NCBI GenBank assembly: GCA_902765485.1 | Contig: CACWZZ010000017.1 | Coordinates: 1 to 43,089, forward strand | Direction of reading: 5' to 3' | From: an uncultured Bacteroidales bacterium | GTDB lineage: Bacteria > Bacteroidota > Bacteroidia > Bacteroidales > Paludibacteraceae | DNA length: 43,089 bases | In this document: piece after piece, positions 3,159 through 41,741 of the stretch | How the letters are laid out: each line of letters starts with the position of its first letter | Numbering within the stretch: position 1 is the stretch's first letter | Notes under the pieces: model-generated | The model's database searches: none | The model's input: the letters and a program-made list of their open reading frames with translations, nothing else | What the model was told of the DNA's origin: nothing | Made by a program: the position numbers and the translations under genes

Positions 3159-3363
3159 ATGCAGCACTTAATTACATATGCCAAGGATAAAACTACAGGC
3201 GAAACTCGAAATATCAAAGATGTTGAGAGTGGCTTGGCATGTAATTGTGTGTGCGGTAATTGCGGTGGCGCATTAGAAGCCTGCAAAGGAAAGATTAGGC
3301 AACATCACTTCCATCGTCATCCAGTCCAAGACCATCGAGACCTACGACGCGAGCAAGAAGTAG
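3159..3363 (+). pseudogene. CoiA-like N-terminal fragment, truncated and joined to a foreign 3' end
   Basis: The frame from ATG 3159 reads like the N-terminal zinc-binding domain of competence CoiA-like proteins: LITYAKDKTTGE, then CNCVCGNCGGALEACKGKIRQHHF, with paired cysteines and the HHF motif. After about base 3297 this frame becomes non-protein-like (Arg/Pro rich) and runs into the C-rich repeat. In another frame (frame 1) from about 3298 a natural-looking protein end appears: GNITSIVIQSKTIETYDASKK, stop at 3361-3363. The simplest reading is a deletion or recombination junction near 3295 joining the start of a CoiA-like gene to the end of another gene. No promoter of its own is seen; it lies seven bases after the NERD gene. 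Confidence 0.55.
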
Positions 3364-3415
3364 CCCGTCCGCGGTGTCCTGTGTCCGGCATCTTTGTTGC
3401 CGGATCCCCCGCCGA

Positions 3416-3442
3416 GCCCCCCAACCCCCTAAAGGGGGAGAG
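3416..3442 (+). repeat. C-rich/G-rich palindromic element, intergenic copy
   Basis: The core CCCCCTAAAGGGGGAG is preceded by CCCCCCAA. The same core occurs inside mtaB twice (3854, 4181) and, inverted, inside addB (7561). This copy lies between genes, just upstream of an intrinsic terminator. Confidence 0.85.
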
Positions 3443-3454
3443 GATTTGAAAAAT

Positions 3455-3476
3455 CGCCCGAAAGGGCGCTTTTTTC
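3455..3476 (+). terminator. Intrinsic terminator abutting the mtaB promoter
   Basis: Stem CGCCC/GGGCG with a GAAA loop is followed by a T-tract (3470-3475). The T-tract leads immediately into the TTG -33 element of mtaB at 3477. Confidence 0.75.
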
Positions 3477-3507
3477 TTGCGTATGTCAAAAAAAAGCAGT
3501 ACCTTTG
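3477..3507 (+). promoter_or_regulatory. mtaB promoter (TTG-N20-TACCTTTG)
   Basis: TTGCGTATGTC at 3477 and TACCTTTG at 3500-3507 with a 20-base spacer. The transcript would start within a few bases of the ATG at 3518, giving a near-leaderless mRNA and ruling out the longer upstream reading frame. Confidence 0.88.
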
Positions 3508-3517
3508 CAGCGAAATT

Positions 3518-4867
3518 ATGAAGATCTCTTTTACCACATTAGGGTGCAAGTTGAATTTTGCGGAGTCCAGCGCGCTGGGAAAAGCGCTGATCGAACGCGG
3601 ACACACGCGGGCAAAGAAAGATGAGCCTGCGGACATCTGTATCATCAACACCTGCTCCGTGACTGACGCTGCCGACCATAAGGACCGACAGATGATCCAT
3701 CGTATCCGGCGGCAAAACCCCAACGCTATCCTCATTGTGACAGGCTGCTATGCCCAATTAAAACCCGATGAAATCGCACATATCGAGGGTGTGGACTATG
3801 TACTCGGGCAGAACGAGAAATTTCATCTGGCGGAGTTTGTGGAAAGGCTGGAAGCCTCCCAGCCCCCTAAAGGGGGAGAAGGGGAAGTCTTTACTTGCCC
3901 TATTCGGGATGTGGAGGATTTTCACGGGGCTTACAGCCGGGACGACCGCACAAGGTGTTTCCTGAAGGTACAGGACGGTTGCAACTATTTCTGCTCGTAC
4001 TGCACGATCCCTCTGGCGCGCGGCAAGAGCCGTAATCCGTCTATCGCTTCGCTCGTTCAAGAAGCACAACAGGCACTCGATGGCGGTGCGAAAGAGATCA
4101 TCCTCTCCGGCGTTAACATCGGCGATTTCGGACGATCCACCGGCGAACGGTTCATTGATCTGCTGCGGGCGTTGGATGAAGCCCCCCAGCCCCCTAAAGG
4201 GGGAGAAGAAGGCGACTACCGCATACGCATCTCCAGCTGCGAGCCGAACTTATTGACCGATGAAATCATTGATTTTGTAGCACACAGCCGCCATTTCGCA
4301 CCGCATTTCCATATCCCCCTTCAGTCCGGCAGTAACACGGTGCTGAAGATCATGGGACGTCGTTACACGCGCGAACTGTTTGCCGAACGCGTCGCACATA
4401 TCAAATCCGTCATGCCGCACGCTTTCATCGGCGTGGACTGCATGGTCGGTGTGCGTGGAGAGACCGCCGAGTGCTGGGCAGAATATGTCGATTTCATCGA
4501 GTCTTTGCCTGTCTCGCAACTGCATGTATTCACCTATTCGGAGCGCGCCAACACGCGGATGTTGGAGATGGATCTGGAGGTCGTGCCGCAGAAAGAACGC
4601 GAGCGCCGCAGTAAGCAGTTACACGAAATAAGCGCCCGCAAAACGGACGCTTTCTACCGCGAGCACGAAGGCTATGAAGCTGTGGTGCTTTGGGAAGGGA
4701 ATAAAAAAGACGGTCTGATGTACGGTTTCACCGAGAATTATATCAAAGTCTCCTGCCCGTACGACAAGTCTAAAGTGAACACGTTTGAGCGCATAACTGT
4801 GCGGCTGCCGTATTCGGCAGACACTCCAGCCGATACACCGAACAGCGCTCCAGCAGCGCAGCAATAG
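3518..4867 (+). CDS. mtaB: tRNA (N6-threonylcarbamoyladenosine37-C2)-methylthiotransferase MtaB
   Basis: This radical-SAM enzyme converts t6A37 to ms2t6A in ANN-decoding tRNAs. The 449-residue product has the UPF0004 domain (residues 1-110; TLGCKLNFAES, NTCSVTDAADHKDRQ, TGCYAQ), the radical SAM domain with the cluster motif CNYFCSYCTIP (C-x3-C-x2-C), HIPLQSGSN, and a C-terminal TRAM region. The GCK(L/V)N N-terminus and DAADHK favour MtaB over MiaB or RimO. Start 3518 is set by the promoter just upstream. Oddities: two copies of a mobile-looking PPKGGE segment are inserted in linkers at about residues 113-121 and 222-230, and the last 98 bases overlap the convergent HprK-like gene, giving an unusual Pro/Ala-rich tail (DTPADTPNSAPAAQQ). 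Confidence 0.95.
   Translation: MKISFTTLGCKLNFAESSALGKALIERGHTRAKKDEPADICIINTCSVTDAADHKDRQMIHRIRRQNPNAILIVTGCYAQLKPDEIAHIEGVDYVLGQNEKFHLAEFVERLEASQPPKGGEGEVFTCPIRDVEDFHGAYSRDDRTRCFLKVQDGCNYFCSYCTIPLARGKSRNPSIASLVQEAQQALDGGAKEIILSGVNIGDFGRSTGERFIDLLRALDEAPQPPKGGEEGDYRIRISSCEPNLLTDEIIDFVAHSRHFAPHFHIPLQSGSNTVLKIMGRRYTRELFAERVAHIKSVMPHAFIGVDCMVGVRGETAECWAEYVDFIESLPVSQLHVFTYSERANTRMLEMDLEVVPQKERERRSKQLHEISARKTDAFYREHEGYEAVVLWEGNKKDGLMYGFTENYIKVSCPYDKSKVNTFERITVRLPYSADTPADTPNSAPAAQQ
3854..3880 (+). repeat. PPKGGE element, in-frame copy 1 in mtaB
   Basis: GCCTCCCAGCCCCCTAAAGG and the following GGGAGAA encode ASQPPKGGE in the linker between the UPF0004 and radical-SAM domains. The core is shared with the copies at 3416, 4181 and 7561. 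Confidence 0.9.
4181..4210 (+). repeat. PPKGGE element, in-frame copy 2 in mtaB
   Basis: Encodes APQPPKGGEE in a loop just before the RIRISSCEPNLL strand of the radical-SAM barrel. Over 25 bases it differs from copy 1 only at the fourth base of the element. Confidence 0.9.
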
Positions 4868-5651
4868 ACTCATAGATCGCGTCCATCGACTCCGGCAGGA
4901 TCTTCAGTCCGCTGACCGAAGCGAGAATATACGGATACGCTTGCGTCATACGCAGGCGTTCTATTTTGTTCTCCGGCGCTTGGACGAGTTGCACGAGCGC
5001 TTGCACGGGTGCCGAATCGGCTATATAACAAGGCGTCTTACCGCTCCAAGGCGATCCATAGACGACCACTCTGCCGTCCTCCCAAAGCCGCACAACAGGG
5101 TTATCATCATTCAGCAGCCACGCTTCCTCAAACGCTTCCAGCCACTGCCGCGAATGGGTGCTCTTGCCCGTTCCCGAATGCCCGAGGAACATATAGCCCT
5201 TGCCGTCGCGCACCGTGACCGACGAATGGAACAGGAGCGTCCTCCTCGATACAGTACAGAAAGCATAAATGAGCATGGCGGTATTGTCAATCGCAAAGCG
5301 TTCGTAGCCCTCCTGCATCGCTACATGCACGTCCGACCATTCCCGGTCGCAACGGATAGAGCAGACCACCTCCGTCTCTCGGTTCACCGAGATCAGGAAC
5401 AGCCATTCGCCGTTTTTGCGGTACATCTCAATCCGCGGCATGTCTTCGTCCGAACGGTCGGTATAGACACTCTCCCACCCTTCGGCGGCATACAACGGAG
5501 CGTCCTCCGCATGAATTATGAACACGTGAGTTGCGCCGATTTGATCGGTCTCAAAGGGTGTATAATTTGACAGGAGAGGAAAAATATTCTCCTTCGCTTC
5601 GATGGCAAACAGATGGTCTGCCACATTATAATGTTTTGTCGTCATAGGCAT
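4770..5651 (-). CDS. HPr kinase/PEPCK-fold kinase-like protein
   Basis: The 293-residue protein resembles the HprK/PEP-carboxykinase-type serine kinases seen in Bacteroidales as proteins of unknown target. A Walker A motif GHSGTGKST (residues 157-165) is followed by WLLNDDNPVVRL, a likely metal-binding acidic segment, and GSPWSGKTPCY, as in the HprK-like fold. The C-terminal VYRLECLPNTAAAQLC also fits this group. There is no lactobacillus-type HprK N-domain. The ATG at 5651 lies one base after the addB stop, so it is the third gene of the addA-addB operon. Its final 98 bases overlap the 3' end of mtaB on the opposite strand. The substrate is unknown; a role linked to carbohydrate sensing or a ribosomal/peptide substrate is only inference. 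Confidence 0.75.
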   Translation of the reverse strand: MPMTTKHYNVADHLFAIEAKENIFPLLSNYTPFETDQIGATHVFIIHAEDAPLYAAEGWESVYTDRSDEDMPRIEMYRKNGEWLFLISVNRETEVVCSIRCDREWSDVHVAMQEGYERFAIDNTAMLIYAFCTVSRRTLLFHSSVTVRDGKGYMFLGHSGTGKSTHSRQWLEAFEEAWLLNDDNPVVRLWEDGRVVVYGSPWSGKTPCYIADSAPVQALVQLVQAPENKIERLRMTQAYPYILASVSGLKILPESMDAIYESIAALLERCSVYRLECLPNTAAAQLCAQTCSL

Positions 5652-5652
5652 A

Positions 5653-8430
5653 TTAAAATTCTTTGGGTTTACGTCCGCAGAGGGTGAAGAATGGGCAGAA
5701 AGACGGACATTTGTCTTCCTCGCAGGGCGGAAACTCCGTAGCGGTCAGCACCTCCGCCACCTTGCCCCGCAAGGCATCGAGGAAAGGCTCTTGGATAGCG
5801 CGATAATCCCGCACGGTCTCCTCTCCCACATTGATGGTCGTCTCTATCTCCGTCAGCTTGCGGCGGCAGAAGAAGAGGTTCGGTTCGATCGGCAGCCCTG
5901 TCCTGTCTTGCGTCATGACGGCATGGCTGTAGATGAGCGTCTGGCGTACATAGCCTTTGTCCTCGCTCTCCATAATCTCTTCCCACGAAGAAGACATCTT
6001 CTTGGCATGCGTCGTGTCGCCGTAACTACCTGATTTATAATCCACCACGCGCAGGCACTCATGTCCCTCCGCGCCGTATATATCCAGTCGGTCAATGATT
6101 CCGCCCATCTGAATCGTCCCCACTCCTTCGATCGTGAGCGGGAACATACGCCGCTGCTCCAGCAGGTAAATCTGCAGACCCGTTTTGGCGTCCTCGCGGT
6201 CGCGCTCCAAGATATTACGGACATAGCCGAGAATCACCACATTCTCGCCGGTATGATGGTCGGACACATAGTGCTCCGGCTCGTCCGGATGGGTCTCGGC
6301 ATAGAGTTCGTTCATCCGTCGGTACGCCTCCGTCAGCGCCTCTTGCTGCTTGGTCTCATCCGTACGGATTGCTTCGATTTCATCGGGCAAAACGCGCACC
6401 GGCGCTGTGTTATTGCAATGCAGATAGCGGGTATAGAGGTACTCCATGGCATGGTGGACAAACGAACCCATCGTGTTCGGCGCAAAGAGTACGTCCTCTT
6501 CGTCCTCGGGGCGCAGATGTTCGATATATTGCAGGTAATAACTGCGCGGGCAGGAGATGAAGGTATTGAGCGCGCTGGGCGATAAGGAAGAGCGCAACGG
6601 AGCCGGTTCGTCCAGATGGATCTCCTCGAACGGCGACTGCGCCAGAATACTCGGCTCTTGCAGTTGCGCTTTTTGTACGGTGAATTCGGGCGAAACGAGC
6701 ATCTGCATGATAAACCGCGACATGCCTTTGCCCCCTTCCGCCGTCTCTGCCGTGGTGAACAGGATCGTCGAATGACCCGTCCGGCTCAGCAGGCGGAAGA
6801 AATTATAGGCATAGATCGTTGCTTTCTCGTCCGAAGTCTGCATGTGGTATGCCTTGCGCAGGTAGAACGGTATGAAACTGAGGTCATTCTGCCGCTGCGG
6901 GATTACTCCTTCCTCTACGTTAAGCAGCAGCAGCCGGTCAAAATCCAGCAGACGCGTCTCCAGCACACCCATGATCTGTATGTCGGTCACCGGTTCGCCG
7001 TGGAAAGGCATGGTGACGCTCTCCATTTCGCGGCGCATGAGCAGCCGGATCAGTTTGAGCGTCACCGGCACATCGCTCAAGCCCTCCGCAATCACTTGGC
7101 GCATCTTCGAAGCGATCTTGCGAACCTGGTATTCGGACTCCAAGATCAATAGTTCCTGCCAAGTGAGTTCGTCCGTAATGGAAGAAGCCCCCTCCGGCTC
7201 CCCCATGGAGGGGGAGAGAATGGACGCCAACAATTCATCGATGAATTCGGGGGAAAGAACTTGCTCCGCCTTGCCTCGCGATTTATCATACAGCCACGCA
7301 ATCGTGCGGGCATAGACCGCTGTATTACGCAGCGGAAAGCCCTTGGTAATATTGATCGGTTCGGGGCTCTCTTCGCCCGGAAGGGTAATCGCCGGAAGGG
7401 TCTGGATTACCGACTCCAACATGTTCTCGTCGCAAATGACCACGCCCACTTTCTGTCCCTTCGCCGTGTAGTTCTCTTGCAGCCAGCGGTGCACAAACTG
7501 CGCCTGCGCTTCGCGCGAAGCACAAGACATGACGGTCACTTCCTTAGGAAAATCACTTTCCTCCCCCTTTAGGGGGATTGAGGGGGCATTCCCCTCTCCT
7601 AAGATCCGGGCATTGAGCTGCGTGAACGAGAAAGCTTTCTCGTTGGTTCGGAAATCCGGTATGTAGTCCCAATAGAACTGCGCTTGCCCTGCATCGCGCA
7701 GGAGCGTCATCAGCTCGCGCTCGACAGGCAACAGGTAGTTAAAGCCCACAAAGACATAGATCCTGCCTGCGATCTGCTGCTGCACGCTCTCGTCCGCCCA
7801 ATGCTCTATCGCGGCACGGTAACGCATACCGTTATAGCCCTTCTGCTCCTCCGCCATCTCCGCCCGCAGGGCTTGGTAGAGTTCATATAATTGGCGCCAG
7901 AGTTGCTCATACTGCCGCCGGATCGAGTCTTCCGACGCGTCCTCTTTCAGCCCGCCGGACATCAGTCCCCGCAAGCGCGCCAAAACCTCTTCGTCCAGAT
8001 TCCAACGGCTCAACTCATGCGCCGCGATCGTGTTATCGAAGAAATTCGGCACCTGCTCCGCCGGCATGGAGGAGTCGATATTAGTGAAGTCCGAGATCAT
8101 CTGTCTGCCCCAACCGTAGAACATCTCAATCGGCATGAGGTCTTTGTCGCCGGCGTTCAGCCGCCGGTAATGGCGGTAGAGCCGCACGACCGTCTTCAAC
8201 TCGTCCTCGGCATACAAGGGACTCAATGCGTCTTGTAATTGATTGAGTGTCAATACCCTCGGCGACCAGAGCGCTTTCACGTTCTGCTCCGCTTGGATAT
8301 CCAGCAACGCTTCGGTCAGCACCAGTCCGGCGCGATGAGACGGCAGCACGAAGGTGACGCTACTGAGCCGCTCCCAGCCTATTGTTTGCACAATAGACTC
8401 TGCTGTATTTCGTAAAAAACTATTTCTCAT
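5653..8430 (-). CDS. addB: AddB-like helicase-nuclease subunit (PD-(D/E)XK)
   Basis: This is the predicted partner of AddA in the RecBCD-equivalent double-strand-break resection complex. The 925-residue protein has a degenerate superfamily I helicase-like N-terminal half (VLPSHRAGLVL in place of an active Walker A) and a C-terminal RecB-family nuclease domain (PDDEXK_1) with RVVDYKSGSYGD and QTLIYSHAV. Cysteines in SCPRSYYLQYIE and in the terminal CEEDKCPSFCPFFTLC probably form the AddB 4Fe-4S cluster. The ATG overlaps the addA stop by 11 bases (GTGCATGAGAAATAG), implying translational coupling. Two C-rich/G-rich repeat insertions are carried in frame, read as APSIPLKGEE (7561-7587) and a variant SPSMGEPEG (7187-7218). 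The Bacteroidota proteins diverge from Bacillus AddB, so the symbol denotes role by position and domains. Confidence 0.86.
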   Translation of the reverse strand: MRNSFLRNTAESIVQTIGWERLSSVTFVLPSHRAGLVLTEALLDIQAEQNVKALWSPRVLTLNQLQDALSPLYAEDELKTVVRLYRHYRRLNAGDKDLMPIEMFYGWGRQMISDFTNIDSSMPAEQVPNFFDNTIAAHELSRWNLDEEVLARLRGLMSGGLKEDASEDSIRRQYEQLWRQLYELYQALRAEMAEEQKGYNGMRYRAAIEHWADESVQQQIAGRIYVFVGFNYLLPVERELMTLLRDAGQAQFYWDYIPDFRTNEKAFSFTQLNARILGEGNAPSIPLKGEESDFPKEVTVMSCASREAQAQFVHRWLQENYTAKGQKVGVVICDENMLESVIQTLPAITLPGEESPEPINITKGFPLRNTAVYARTIAWLYDKSRGKAEQVLSPEFIDELLASILSPSMGEPEGASSITDELTWQELLILESEYQVRKIASKMRQVIAEGLSDVPVTLKLIRLLMRREMESVTMPFHGEPVTDIQIMGVLETRLLDFDRLLLLNVEEGVIPQRQNDLSFIPFYLRKAYHMQTSDEKATIYAYNFFRLLSRTGHSTILFTTAETAEGGKGMSRFIMQMLVSPEFTVQKAQLQEPSILAQSPFEEIHLDEPAPLRSSLSPSALNTFISCPRSYYLQYIEHLRPEDEEDVLFAPNTMGSFVHHAMEYLYTRYLHCNNTAPVRVLPDEIEAIRTDETKQQEALTEAYRRMNELYAETHPDEPEHYVSDHHTGENVVILGYVRNILERDREDAKTGLQIYLLEQRRMFPLTIEGVGTIQMGGIIDRLDIYGAEGHECLRVVDYKSGSYGDTTHAKKMSSSWEEIMESEDKGYVRQTLIYSHAVMTQDRTGLPIEPNLFFCRRKLTEIETTINVGEETVRDYRAIQEPFLDALRGKVAEVLTATEFPPCEEDKCPSFCPFFTLCGRKPKEF
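7187..7218 (-). repeat. Divergent C-rich/G-rich palindromic element in addB
   Basis: Contains CCCCCATGGAGGGGGAG preceded by GCCCCCTCCGGCT, resembling the PPKGGE element but with ATGGA at its centre. In the addB frame it reads LSPSMGEPEGASS, a low-complexity insertion between helicase-like segments. Confidence 0.7.
7561..7587 (-). repeat. PPKGGE-type element in addB
   Basis: On the minus strand this reads GCCCCCTCAATCCCCCTAAA followed by GGGGGAG, sharing the CCCCCTAAAGGGGGAG core with the mtaB copies. Here it is translated in the same register as PSIPLKGEE. Confidence 0.88.
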
Positions 8431-11400
8431 GCACTTCTACCAATTTATCGCCCTTCTCTTTGCGTGCGTACCATAGGAAGCCGCGGACGGAAGGGTGTCC
8501 GATCTCCCGCAGCGCCGCCATATACCGCTGCACCTGATCCTCGTATTGCGGATCGGGCTTGCCATGCCATGCGCCGAACTTATAGTCCAGCACGATCGCT
8601 TCGTTGGTCTTGGAATTGATCATCACACGGTCGGGACGGATCTTCTTTCTGTCCATCAGCACATCGTGCTCCAACTCCAGCACCCAAGGCGAAGTGAACC
8701 AGTCGCGCATCTGCGCATTGCCGATCCATGCCGATGAAATCAGGTCTTTTAGCACCTCGCGTTGCTGCGGGTCGCGGATCTCGCCGCGGCTCTCAAACTC
8801 ATCCAGCACCGCCTCTAACTCATCCGCTTTGCGTATATTGGCGAAGATCTCATGGCAGAGCGTGCCTTCCTCCATCCTCGCCACACGGCGGTATGCCTCG
8901 TCGCCCATGTCGGTATAGAGCGCCCCCTCCTGCGACTGAACGAAGCGCACTTGGTCGCTGTTCGCCCACACTTCCGCTTGTACCACCGGCGCACCCTCAA
9001 AGGAGAAAGGTTTTAAACTTTCAACTTTCCTCTTTGAACTTTCAACTTTCAACTTTAAACTTTCAACTTTCCTCTCTCCGGCTTCGTAGTCATCGCCTTG
9101 GACGAAATCCTTGATATACAGCCCCACATGGTTGCAGGTTCCCATCGAGCCGTCCTGTTTGACGGGGTAAGACGTTGAAATATAGAGATTATCCTCCGCT
9201 CGGGTCAACGCCACATAGAGCATATTCAGATTGTCGATCCGCATGTTGGTATGCTCTTCGTTGTATTCGTCTATATACGCCGAGTCCGCCATTTCCGCAC
9301 CGTCCTGGATGGGCACAAAATCCGTGTCCCCGATCTCCTCCGCTACGCGGCACCAGATCTTCGAGGGGTGTTTGCCTGCCTCTTTGGTCCACATGCAGAA
9401 AGGTATAAACAGCGTCTGCGCCTGCAGTCCTTTGCTGGCATGAACAGTCAGAATCCGGATGGCGTCGGCGGACGCGGCAGGGATGGATTTGGCATGCAGC
9501 GTGTCGTCCCAATAAGTCAGGAAATCCGGGATGTCGCTCCCATACGCGCTCACGTAGTCGCGCGTGCGATCTAATAAGGAGTTGAGGTATGCCGTTTCGG
9601 AACCGTGGTACTGTCCGTCCTCGTCCGCCAGCAGAATCTTGATCAAGTCGGACACCGCTTCATACAGCGGCGTGCGGGAGGTCAGATTATGCTCCTTGAT
9701 TTGCTCGTTGAAATCGGACTTATGGGTGGTCAGCGCAATATATTTCGCCGCCACTTCGTCGTTCTTGGCAATCACTTTGAGTCCGGCAATCACGGTCTGC
9801 ACCGCTTCGGAGGCTTCCAGCAGGAAACTGTCTGCCGAGACGATAGCTGCTTGGGAGAGCAAAGGATATTCCTCTGCGTCCAGCATGGTATGCAGGTCGG
9901 TAATGAGCGCCGCGTCTTTCTTCTCGCGCACCAAGATCATCATATCTGCCGGCTTGGCTCCCAACTGCAACAAATGCTCCATTTCATCGAACATTTCCGA
10001 CGCCAGATCCTCCTTTTGACCGTTCGGCACGGCGTGGAAACGGACGTAACCGCCTTTTTTCTTTTTGCCTTGGTAGAACTGCTCCAGTTTCTCCGGAGAA
10101 AATCCTTCGCTGTAGATGCGCTCCACCAACTCGTCATTGGCGGAACGGATGATATGGTCGAAGAGGGAGAGGTTGAACCGCACCACCTCCTCGCTGCTGC
10201 GGAAATTGCGAGTCAGAGAGGTCTCGTTGACCTGCTCTCCCGTCAGGCTCTCCATGATATGCCAGTCACCGTTTCGCCAGCGGTAGATGGATTGTTTTAT
10301 ATCCCCCACGATGAGGAGGGTGTTGCCTTCGCTCGCCAGCAGATCCTGCAGCAGCTGGCGTATGACGCTCCACTGCAGGCGGCTGGTGTCCTGGAACTCG
10401 TCCATCAGCACGTGGTGGTAGCGGATGCCTGCTTTCTCCAAGATGAAATCCGCGTCTCCTTCTCGCAGGGCTTTGCTGAGCGTGCCTGCCGTCCGCGCCA
10501 GCAAGGCGCAGTTCGCATCCGCCAGATTGCGCTGGATGAGGGCTTGCAGCGAACTCATCAGCTCCATATCGCGGCTGAAACGGATGGTCAGTTGGAGCGT
10601 GTTATAGCGGTGCGCAAGGTTTTTCGCCAACTCGGTCGCCCGAACGGCGTCTTCCACTACCTGCGCCGGCAGTTTAGTCCATTTGCCGGCTTTTGCGTCC
10701 GACAGTTGCGTCTCCGTCAGTCCGCGGAAACGGTCTTTAGGCGAGATCTTCTCCGGTGCTTTGAGCGTCTGGAGCAGCCGCGCGCAGGCACGGTCTATAT
10801 CTTTCACGTGCGGCAGCGGTTTCGGACTCACAGCACCCATGGAGACCAGCCATTCGGTATGAATGCCGTCCAATATTGCCTGCAATTCGCGCTTCCGTTC
10901 GTCCTGCAGCCACATCTCTTCTACCGCTTTGCGCCGCCGCGCTATCGCCGCAGCGTCAAATAGGATTTGTCCGTTGGAATCGAGCATTTGTACCGATTCA
11001 TCGTACATCTCTTTCGCCATAGTGCAGAGACTCTGGCGCACATCCCACTGGCTCTCCTGATCCAGCTTCAGACGCATGTAATCCTCCAATATTGTCCGGT
11101 CCGCCGCACTCATCTCGGTCGTCAGCAGCTGATCTACCGCCGTGCGGATCACATGATCTATATCCAACTCGGTGTTCAAGCCCGCACTCATGCGCAGCAC
11201 ACCGGCTAATCCGCTCAGGAGGGTCTGCAAGAACGAGTCAATCGTCATGACATGGAGATTGTCAAAGTCCGCCAGCATTGTGCGGAAACACTTCCCTGCC
11301 CGCTCCCTCAACTGCTCGTCCGAGAGGTGTTGGTCGCGGATCATAAACATACGGGCGCGATTCAGGAAATCACTCTCCTCTCCGAGCGAAAGGGCGTATA

Positions 11401-13536: not shown

Positions 13537-13645
13537 ATATACGGATAAGTAATAATCGTTCCGTATGGATATACGGATAAGTAATAATCGTTCCGTATGG
13601 ATATACGGATAAGTAATAATCGTTCCGTATGGATATACGGATAAG
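13537..13645 (+). repeat. 32-base tandem repeat, three exact copies plus a partial fourth
   Basis: Exact units at 13537-13568, 13569-13600 and 13601-13632, then 13 bases of a fourth copy to 13645. Each unit contains ATACGGA and TCCGTAT separated by 14 bases, so every copy can form a hairpin. CCGTAT at one unit's end can also pair with ATACGG at the next unit's start. There are no variable spacers, so it is not a CRISPR array. Confidence 0.95.
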
Positions 13646-24068: not shown

Positions 24069-25022
24069 ATGAAGATCGCTTTTACCACCGAATTACCGAA
24101 AGAAGGGTTCCGACGCCTCGCAGAGCGAGGCTTTGGTGAGTGGGTGTTGGTGGAAGATATGAGGGAGGAATGGAAAGAAGCGGAGATTCTGGTGAGCACG
24201 TTTGACTACCATGTGCCGCGGGAGATGATTGAAGCGATGCCTCATCTGCGACTGATTGCCAATTTCGGAGCGGGATACAATAATATTGATTTGGACGCTT
24301 GCCGCGAACGCGGAATCCGCGTGACGAACACACCGCAGCCGGTGATCGAACCTACAGCAGAACTGGCTTTTGCGCTGATGATAGACGTGGCGCGGCGGGT
24401 GAGTGAGTTTGACAGAGCCGTCAGAAGTCAGCCGTCAGAAGTCAGCCATTTTGAGGGATTCGGGGTTATGCGGAATCTGAGTCATTCGCTGTACGGCAAG
24501 ACGCTGGGAATCATCGGTATGGGTCGGATCGGACAAGCCTTGGCGAGACGCGCGCTAGCGTCCGGAATGCGGATTCTATATTTCAACCGACATAAATTGC
24601 CCGTTGAAATCGAACAAAAATACGAGGCGACGTATGTTGATTTTCAAACCTTGCTGCAGGATAGTGACTTCGTTTCGCTGAACCTGCCATACACGCCGGA
24701 GGTACACCATCTGATCGGTAAGCCGGAGTTGGGAATGATGAAACGGAGCGCATACCTTATAAATACTGCGCGCGGCGCGCACGTACACGAGGGAGCGCTG
24801 GTAGAAGCACTCAAAAGCGGAATTATCGCCGGAGCAGCGATGGATGTGTATGAGCATGAACCTGCGATTTCATCGGAACTTTTGACGCTGCCGAACGTCG
24901 TACTCTCGCCGCACACAGGAACCGGGACATGGGAAGGAAGGATCGCCATGTGCGAAAACGTCACCGACAACATACTGGCGTTCATACAAAACGACCTTCA
25001 AGGGATGAATATCGTTTTGTAA
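24069..25022 (+). CDS. D-isomer-specific 2-hydroxyacid dehydrogenase
   Basis: This NAD(P)-dependent enzyme reduces 2-keto acids (glyoxylate, hydroxypyruvate or similar) to D-2-hydroxyacids. The 317-residue protein has an N-terminal catalytic domain (FGAGYNNIDLDACRERGIRVTNTP), the dinucleotide fold GIIGMGRIGQAL (about 147-158), the catalytic Arg in INTARGAHV, Glu in YEHEP and His in LSPHTGTGTWEGR. Start 24069 is set by the promoter; the longer frame would begin before it. A short in-frame repeat (SQPSEVS, about residues 120-126, from a duplicated 14-base unit) sits in the linker before the nucleotide-binding domain. The stop codon is followed directly by an AT-rich GAGAATTGAGAATT repeat. Substrate cannot be assigned. 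Confidence 0.92.
   Translation: MKIAFTTELPKEGFRRLAERGFGEWVLVEDMREEWKEAEILVSTFDYHVPREMIEAMPHLRLIANFGAGYNNIDLDACRERGIRVTNTPQPVIEPTAELAFALMIDVARRVSEFDRAVRSQPSEVSHFEGFGVMRNLSHSLYGKTLGIIGMGRIGQALARRALASGMRILYFNRHKLPVEIEQKYEATYVDFQTLLQDSDFVSLNLPYTPEVHHLIGKPELGMMKRSAYLINTARGAHVHEGALVEALKSGIIAGAAMDVYEHEPAISSELLTLPNVVLSPHTGTGTWEGRIAMCENVTDNILAFIQNDLQGMNIVL
24417..24449 (+). repeat. SEVS-type 14-base repeat in the dehydrogenase gene
   Basis: The unit CAGAAGTCAGCCGT occurs at 24422-24435 and is followed by a second copy ending in CAT instead of CGT. The same unit appears in pepT at 25816-25842. Confidence 0.88.
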
Positions 25023-41682: not shown

Positions 41683-41741
41683 TTGCCCCAAAGGGGCACG
41701 ATTATTGCGAGGGCGCAATTCTCGAGTCCGCTATACTCCAC
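41683..41741 (+). other. Partial tRNA-Ala 3'-end copy with preceding hairpins
   Basis: The exact 20-base copy of the tRNA 3' end (41722-41741) follows hairpins TGCCCC/GGGGCA (41683-41697) and ATTGCG/CGCAAT (41703-41718). It could be a decayed tRNA gene or the far end of a lost insertion, 96 bases from copy 1. Confidence 0.6.

Follow-up and report, generated by a model that had tools for sequence, protein, structure and literature searches.

The window analysed here is the whole 43,089-nucleotide stretch of contig CACWZZ010000017.1, from an uncultured, rumen-type Bacteroidales bacterium of the Paludibacteraceae. Near its start lie mtaB, encoding a tRNA t6A37 methylthiotransferase (3518..4867, forward strand; TIGR01579 above its NCBIfam cut-off), and an addB-like gene for a repair nuclease subunit (5653..8430, reverse strand; TIGR03623 and TIGR02786, both below cut-off). 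Within and beside these genes lie copies of a short palindromic element whose core, CCCCCTAAAGGGGGAG, matches the window six times against 0.07 expected and a maximum of one across 100 shuffles. The core is exact at 3425-3440, 3863-3878 and 4190-4205 on the forward strand and at 7561-7576 on the reverse strand, and recurs with three mismatches at 7201-7216; the sixth match, at 7563-7578, is the copy at 7561 read on the opposite strand. A sequence-only reading of this stretch had placed copies at 3416, 3854, 4181 and 7561 and a divergent one at 7187, and the search recovers all five. Its starts at 3416, 3854, 4181 and 7187 include a C-rich head ahead of the hairpin.

The core that had been recognized is only part of the unit: the C-rich head AAGCCCCC is followed by the hairpin, giving 27-32 nt with ends judged from the sequence. 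By eye we distinguished form A (AAGCCCCCCag-CCCCC-TRAA-GGGGG-AG), form B (AAGCCCCCTCCrrCTCCCCC...GGGGGAG, arms CTCCCCC/GGGGGAG) and form C (AAGCCCCACCCrrCCTCCCC...GGGGAGG, arms CCTCCCC/GGGGAGG); automatic sorting of 56 genome sites left 18 unsorted. Both hairpin arms change together between forms when the matches are listed in register and compared by eye. Copy 1 (form A, 3414..3440, forward strand) lies 5' of mtaB and is intergenic if ATG 3518 is the mtaB start, yet an open reading frame (ORF) from GTG 3374 crosses it in frame. Just upstream, positions 3310-3363 resemble the 3' end of a gene, presumably of HU type by its look, and this stretch also precedes copies in loci L013, L028 and L033. 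Copies 2 (3852..3878) and 3 (4179..4205), both form A on the forward strand, are in frame in mtaB and are translated EASQPPKGGEG and EAPQPPKGGEE. In addB, copy 4 (form A-like, 7561..7590, reverse strand) reads in frame as NAPSIPLKGEE, and the divergent form B copy (7185..7216, forward strand; ILSPSMGEPEGA) reads in frame as LSPSMGEPEGA. The in-frame peptides that the sequence-only reading had proposed, QPPKGGE and IPLKGEE, were thus recovered, as QPPKGGE twice in MtaB and as PSIPLKGEE in AddB.

Further copies are dispersed across the window's own genome, labelled G000 (genomes carry G-numbers and loci L-numbers), an assembly of 2.1 Mb spread over 41 contigs with a completeness of 82.8%. Exact core matches number 14, with none for a reversed control; at up to three mismatches there are 66 raw matches (control 20), which merge to 56 sites. 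Ten of the 28 sites with at most one mismatch fall inside ORFs of named families: MtaB (two sites), AddB (below cut-off), XseA, GldD, a PG_1098/THUMP-like protein, MnmE (two sites), Exo_endo_phos_3 and a CCA-transferase. Across all 56 sites, 23 lie inside 19 named-family genes, the weaker matches adding ThiL, MurD, DusB, PrmC, a KorB-type subunit, an aldo/keto reductase, a GAF protein, an APH/RapZ-C protein, two DUF proteins and an amylase. Three scanned host ORFs (C8:67470, C22:3589 and C2:36718) had no family match, and not every matching ORF was scanned. Genic copies are read in various frames and lie in either orientation, and the reading frame of the host is kept. The ten sites with at most one mismatch occupy four of the six frames (5, 2, 2 and 1 sites), and the forward frame of form A that gives TAA or TGA is unused among them. 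Element DNA is accordingly translated in various ways, as QPPKGGE at both MtaB sites, QPPEGG at both MnmE sites, and IPLKGEE or PPSGGRGA elsewhere. Because the genic copies use four of six frames, the unit spread as DNA and not as a peptide. By eye, matches in L020, L049 and L059 fall in N-terminal signal-peptide-like stretches such as LLLFTPLLGGVGEGFLFAQ. A second dispersed repeat, CGATCGAGC..AGCTCTTCA, stands at or near palindromes in L038, L047, L054 and L056, apparently in frame in DusB and the Exo_endo_phos protein.

We then compared individual sites with relatives, taken as the best 80 of 578 confirmed matches; the nearest named records are mostly titled Paludibacteraceae or Bacteroidales, mostly metagenome-assembled genomes (MAGs), and many are from ruminants. 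At MtaB site 1 (3852) only L172 carries the element at the same position (1/80), and L121 and L122 carry a different insert. At MtaB site 2 (4179) the element is shared with L121 and L122 (2/80). The AddB copy at 7561 is likewise present in L121 and L122 (2/48), and that at 7201 in L172 only (1/48), with L121 and L122 carrying a different repeat there. Two sharing patterns result, one linking the window with L172 (MtaB site 1, AddB 7201) and one linking it with L121 and L122 (MtaB site 2, AddB 7561). A separate draw of 29 genus relatives gave an agreeing MtaB result, and both MnmE sites have the element at the same position in one of 29 genus relatives, G075, which is the genome of L121. The check proposed by the sequence-only reading therefore came out in its favour, the segments being missing from orthologues except in the one or two nearest records per site. 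By eye, the aldo/keto reductase and PrmC of G075 (L207 and L209) also seem to have the element at the G000 sites, with differing loop bases. The net gain at MnmE site 1 is 15 nt for a unit of ~24-27 nt, which implies that host bases were lost there, and no target-site duplication was evident by eye at the sites aligned. Other palindromes may occupy some of the same positions: L197 has 8-base arms at MtaB site 2, L172 a short CCCC/GGGG hairpin inside a heptamer-like insert at AddB 7561, and L295, by eye, a near-palindrome at MnmE site 2. A related unit in the second MnmE loop of G179 (L287), from another family of the same class, suggests that this loop was used independently. Both MtaB loops of L197 (2200-3618) are filled by a different repeat of ~50 nt, SETKVISPSSCVLHPSS.

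The element's sites in MtaB, AddB and MnmE are variable in length. As the share of length variance between anchor columns of the alignment, MtaB sites 2 and 1 account for 48% and 31% (ranks 1 and 2 of 5 blocks; 79 sequences, L196 and L200 dropped), the AddB sites for 36% and 9% (ranks 2 and 4 of 22 blocks; 49 sequences) and the MnmE sites for 37% and 28% (ranks 1 and 3 of 6; 30 sequences, L287 dropped). All six sites tested in these three proteins fall in length-variable blocks. An AlphaFold model of MtaB (mean predicted local distance difference test score, pLDDT, 76.3) places coil at both inserts, where pLDDT drops to less than 50 (residues 119-121 and 227-229), and the site 2 insert is flanked by a helix and a strand. 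Aligned with solved relatives, the insert falls at an alignment gap in MtaB site 2, MnmE site 1, the CCA-transferase and ThiL, a gap being no proof of a loop; it falls in a poorly matching stretch in MtaB site 1, MnmE site 2 and MurD, and in DusB the alignment ends at the insert. The earlier proposal that genic copies sit in linkers or loops is thus upheld for both MtaB copies by the model, and it agrees with the length-variable blocks in AddB and MnmE.

Some of these loops appear to exchange one repeat for another. At four loops in three neighbouring genes, near relatives have an unrelated, often heptamer-like repeat in place of the palindrome. MtaB site 1 and AddB 7201 are swapped in L121, and AddB 7561 in L172. 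In addA the swap is reversed: an in-frame tandem array of heptamers (9012..9075, reverse strand) occupies the loop in the window, L121 and L123, and L172 has a form-C-like palindrome instead. This array is common to the window and L121, with a variant form in L123 and L124. The L121 insert in MtaB includes a 14-base stretch identical to the tandem unit at window 24416-24447. Differences between the window, L121 and L172 at these sites are limited to ~60-120 nt, beyond which the flanks return to background identity; they represent either replaced patches or substitutions clustered beside indels. No donor of the swapped patches was present among the aligned loci. We tentatively raise the possibility that loops of housekeeping proteins serve as landing patches in this genus, rewritten repeatedly between palindrome and heptamer array in tracts of ~60-120 nt without a dedicated transposase, in which case repair-type repeat copying would continually supply variation in the length and sequence of proteins. 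Elsewhere in the window, positions 13537-13645 hold a tandem repeat of a 32-base unit (3.4 copies, 100% matches), and stretches of 41 and 43 bases in G075 are missing from the window at 41692 and 23652.

The architecture of the element occurs patchily in Bacteroidia. A two-block pattern search found it in 20/61 genus genomes (where the control matched none of the 61), 25/296 phylum genomes and 16/247 order genomes, each count including the window's own genome; in the phylum and order surveys the control also matches some genomes and some single matches look like chance. The further genomic copies that the sequence-only reading anticipated thus exist both in G000 and across the genus. Among the matches listed outside the genus, all 11 neighbours within 150 bases are inverted with their heads outward. 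Two plasmid records matched weakly, at mtaB and a nuclease gene of Parabacteroides, and the exact form A pattern occurs in nine stretches of viral contigs.

The element is therefore multicopy, patchy between species and present inside conserved genes, and it looks like mobile DNA written into conserved proteins. We consider it probable that the copies form a dispersed family of short palindromic repeats resembling repetitive extragenic palindromes (REPs), an origin for which support is moderate, with genic copies arising through short templated patches. Copies would enter genes as short patches at the cost of some host bases, the likeliest route being templated repair or a conversion-like process with other copies as source, and the survivors would be only those patches that are in frame and in tolerant places. 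Since the close neighbours listed outside the genus are inverted pairs, the family probably started as an element of the REPIN type (paired, inverted REPs), mobilized in trans by a transposase of the single-strand, TnpA_REP-like kind. The proposal that the repeat is mobile or gene-converting is supported as far as presence and absence at matched sites and the exchange of patches go. Several observations weigh against our interpretation. Neither an insertion event nor a donor copy nor an enzyme was seen, and among the matches listed inside the genus all 10 neighbours within 150 bases are direct and none inverted. Given the 20 control matches at three mismatches, chance may account for part of the 56 sites. 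In folding as single-stranded DNA, form A performs like its shuffles (z -0.24, -0.05), and the 7561 copy and form B do only modestly better (z -1.13, -1.46, -1.33). A similar dip in identity occurs without any element at MtaB residues 171-190, and the L121 and L172 patches match their nearest sampled alleles, L122 aside, at only 44-76%. The relatives compared also include MAGs and uncultured records, and some copies are close to contig ends, as might be expected if the element were an assembly artefact. The probability of this is negligible, as L121 matches L122 at each of the four sites and two of the sites are shared by L172, with the reservation that L121 and L122 may not be fully independent (similar roe-deer isolate names; L122 is titled Oscillospiraceae).

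Plain REP/REPIN transposition in trans by a REP-associated tyrosine transposase (RAYT; TnpA_REP, PF01797), its gene lost from or unassembled in G000, is possible although rather doubtful. Consistent with it are the short palindromic unit, the inverted pairs outside the genus and the presence of PF01797 in 22/24 element-positive genomes outside the genus (10/11 and 12/13) versus 17/30 element-negative genomes of the same class (Fisher p 0.006), where the 24 positives were hand-picked (11/24 other element-positive genomes of the phylum survey, 13/15 of the order survey) and the test ignores relatedness. Yet PF01797 was not found in G000 or G075, both among the most copy-rich genomes of the genus, and within the genus it shows no association with the element (7/20 positive and 15/41 negative genomes, p 1). 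The element stands beside PF01797 loci (flanks of ~1.5 kb or less) in 0/12 cases in the genus, and in 0/30 and 1/30 (G595) in element-positive genomes outside it; nor is there a conserved tag, with GTAG in 11/144 contexts and CGTC in 0/144 in the head flank (all loci pooled). With suggestive co-occurrence outside the genus set against negative neighbourhood and within-genus tests, we rejected a RAYT as the evident mover. It is improbable that the element is an intergenic functional RNA or terminator under selection, with genic copies as by-products. By eye, several intergenic copies lie between a stop codon and a second hairpin that carries a T run, but that hairpin is a separate sequence; genic copies lie on both strands, presence is patchy, and Rfam returned no match at gathering score, only three matches with E 0.29-0.49. 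A convergent, selected protein motif could explain the repeated QPPKGGE in MtaB and QPPEGG in MnmE, but is highly improbable, given that identical DNA yields quite different peptides in other proteins and frames and that the element is missing in most relatives.

The element can be compared with several known systems. Cyanobacterial short tandemly repeated repetitive (STRR) sequences are heptamer repeats, and period-7 arrays fill the same loops in addA of the window and in its relatives; these heptamer repeats are unrelated in sequence to our element and are not palindromic. Rickettsia is the best-known source of in-frame palindromic elements, and the likeness drawn by the sequence-only reading is fair as an analogy. 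Rickettsia palindromic elements (RPEs) are described as palindromic repeats in frame in genes, where they are apparently tolerated (PMC10969869, PMC3733652), and in this they resemble the in-frame genic copies reported here, missing at the same site in most orthologues. RPEs are described there as either ~150 bp long and encoding a conserved peptide or carrying a CGTC tag, whereas the element here is 27-32 nt, untagged and from Bacteroidia. CGTC or its complement occurs in the last 10 nt of 2/144 contexts, and judged from the RPE descriptions the element, with neither a CGTC end nor a ~150 bp length, appears to fall outside that sequence family. Intragenic GTAG/CGTC REPs are described in PMC3733652 as short stem-loops that are mostly intergenic, with some in ORFs, perhaps in linkers or loops, and many in replication or repair genes; Bacteroidetes is mentioned there once, among phyla having CGTC repeats. 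Our element differs from GTAG REPs in lacking a conserved 5' GTAG. The neighbours listed outside the genus form inverted pairs, as in REPINs, and those listed inside it are direct; the element departs from REP/RAYT systems in that no PF01797 was found in the 82.8%-complete G000 and copies almost never lie beside the PF01797 genes examined. A Bacteroidetes RAYT subclass (2.6) is noted to have flanking 'atypical secondary structures' (PMC6006769). In the literature searched we found no description of this element sequence in Bacteroidia; the core strings turn up in two papers, apparently a CRISPR study and one on prions and nucleic acids. In-frame palindromes are already known from Rickettsia and as intragenic REPs (PMC3733652, PMC10969869), and, as an analogy, our element works as they do. 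What distinguishes it is that a short family in Bacteroidia, carrying no tag, occupies proteins of tRNA modification, the cell wall and repair, and that close relatives differ site by site and so provide natural before-and-after pairs for studying how proteins come to contain repeats, what they can accommodate and whether this requires a transposase.

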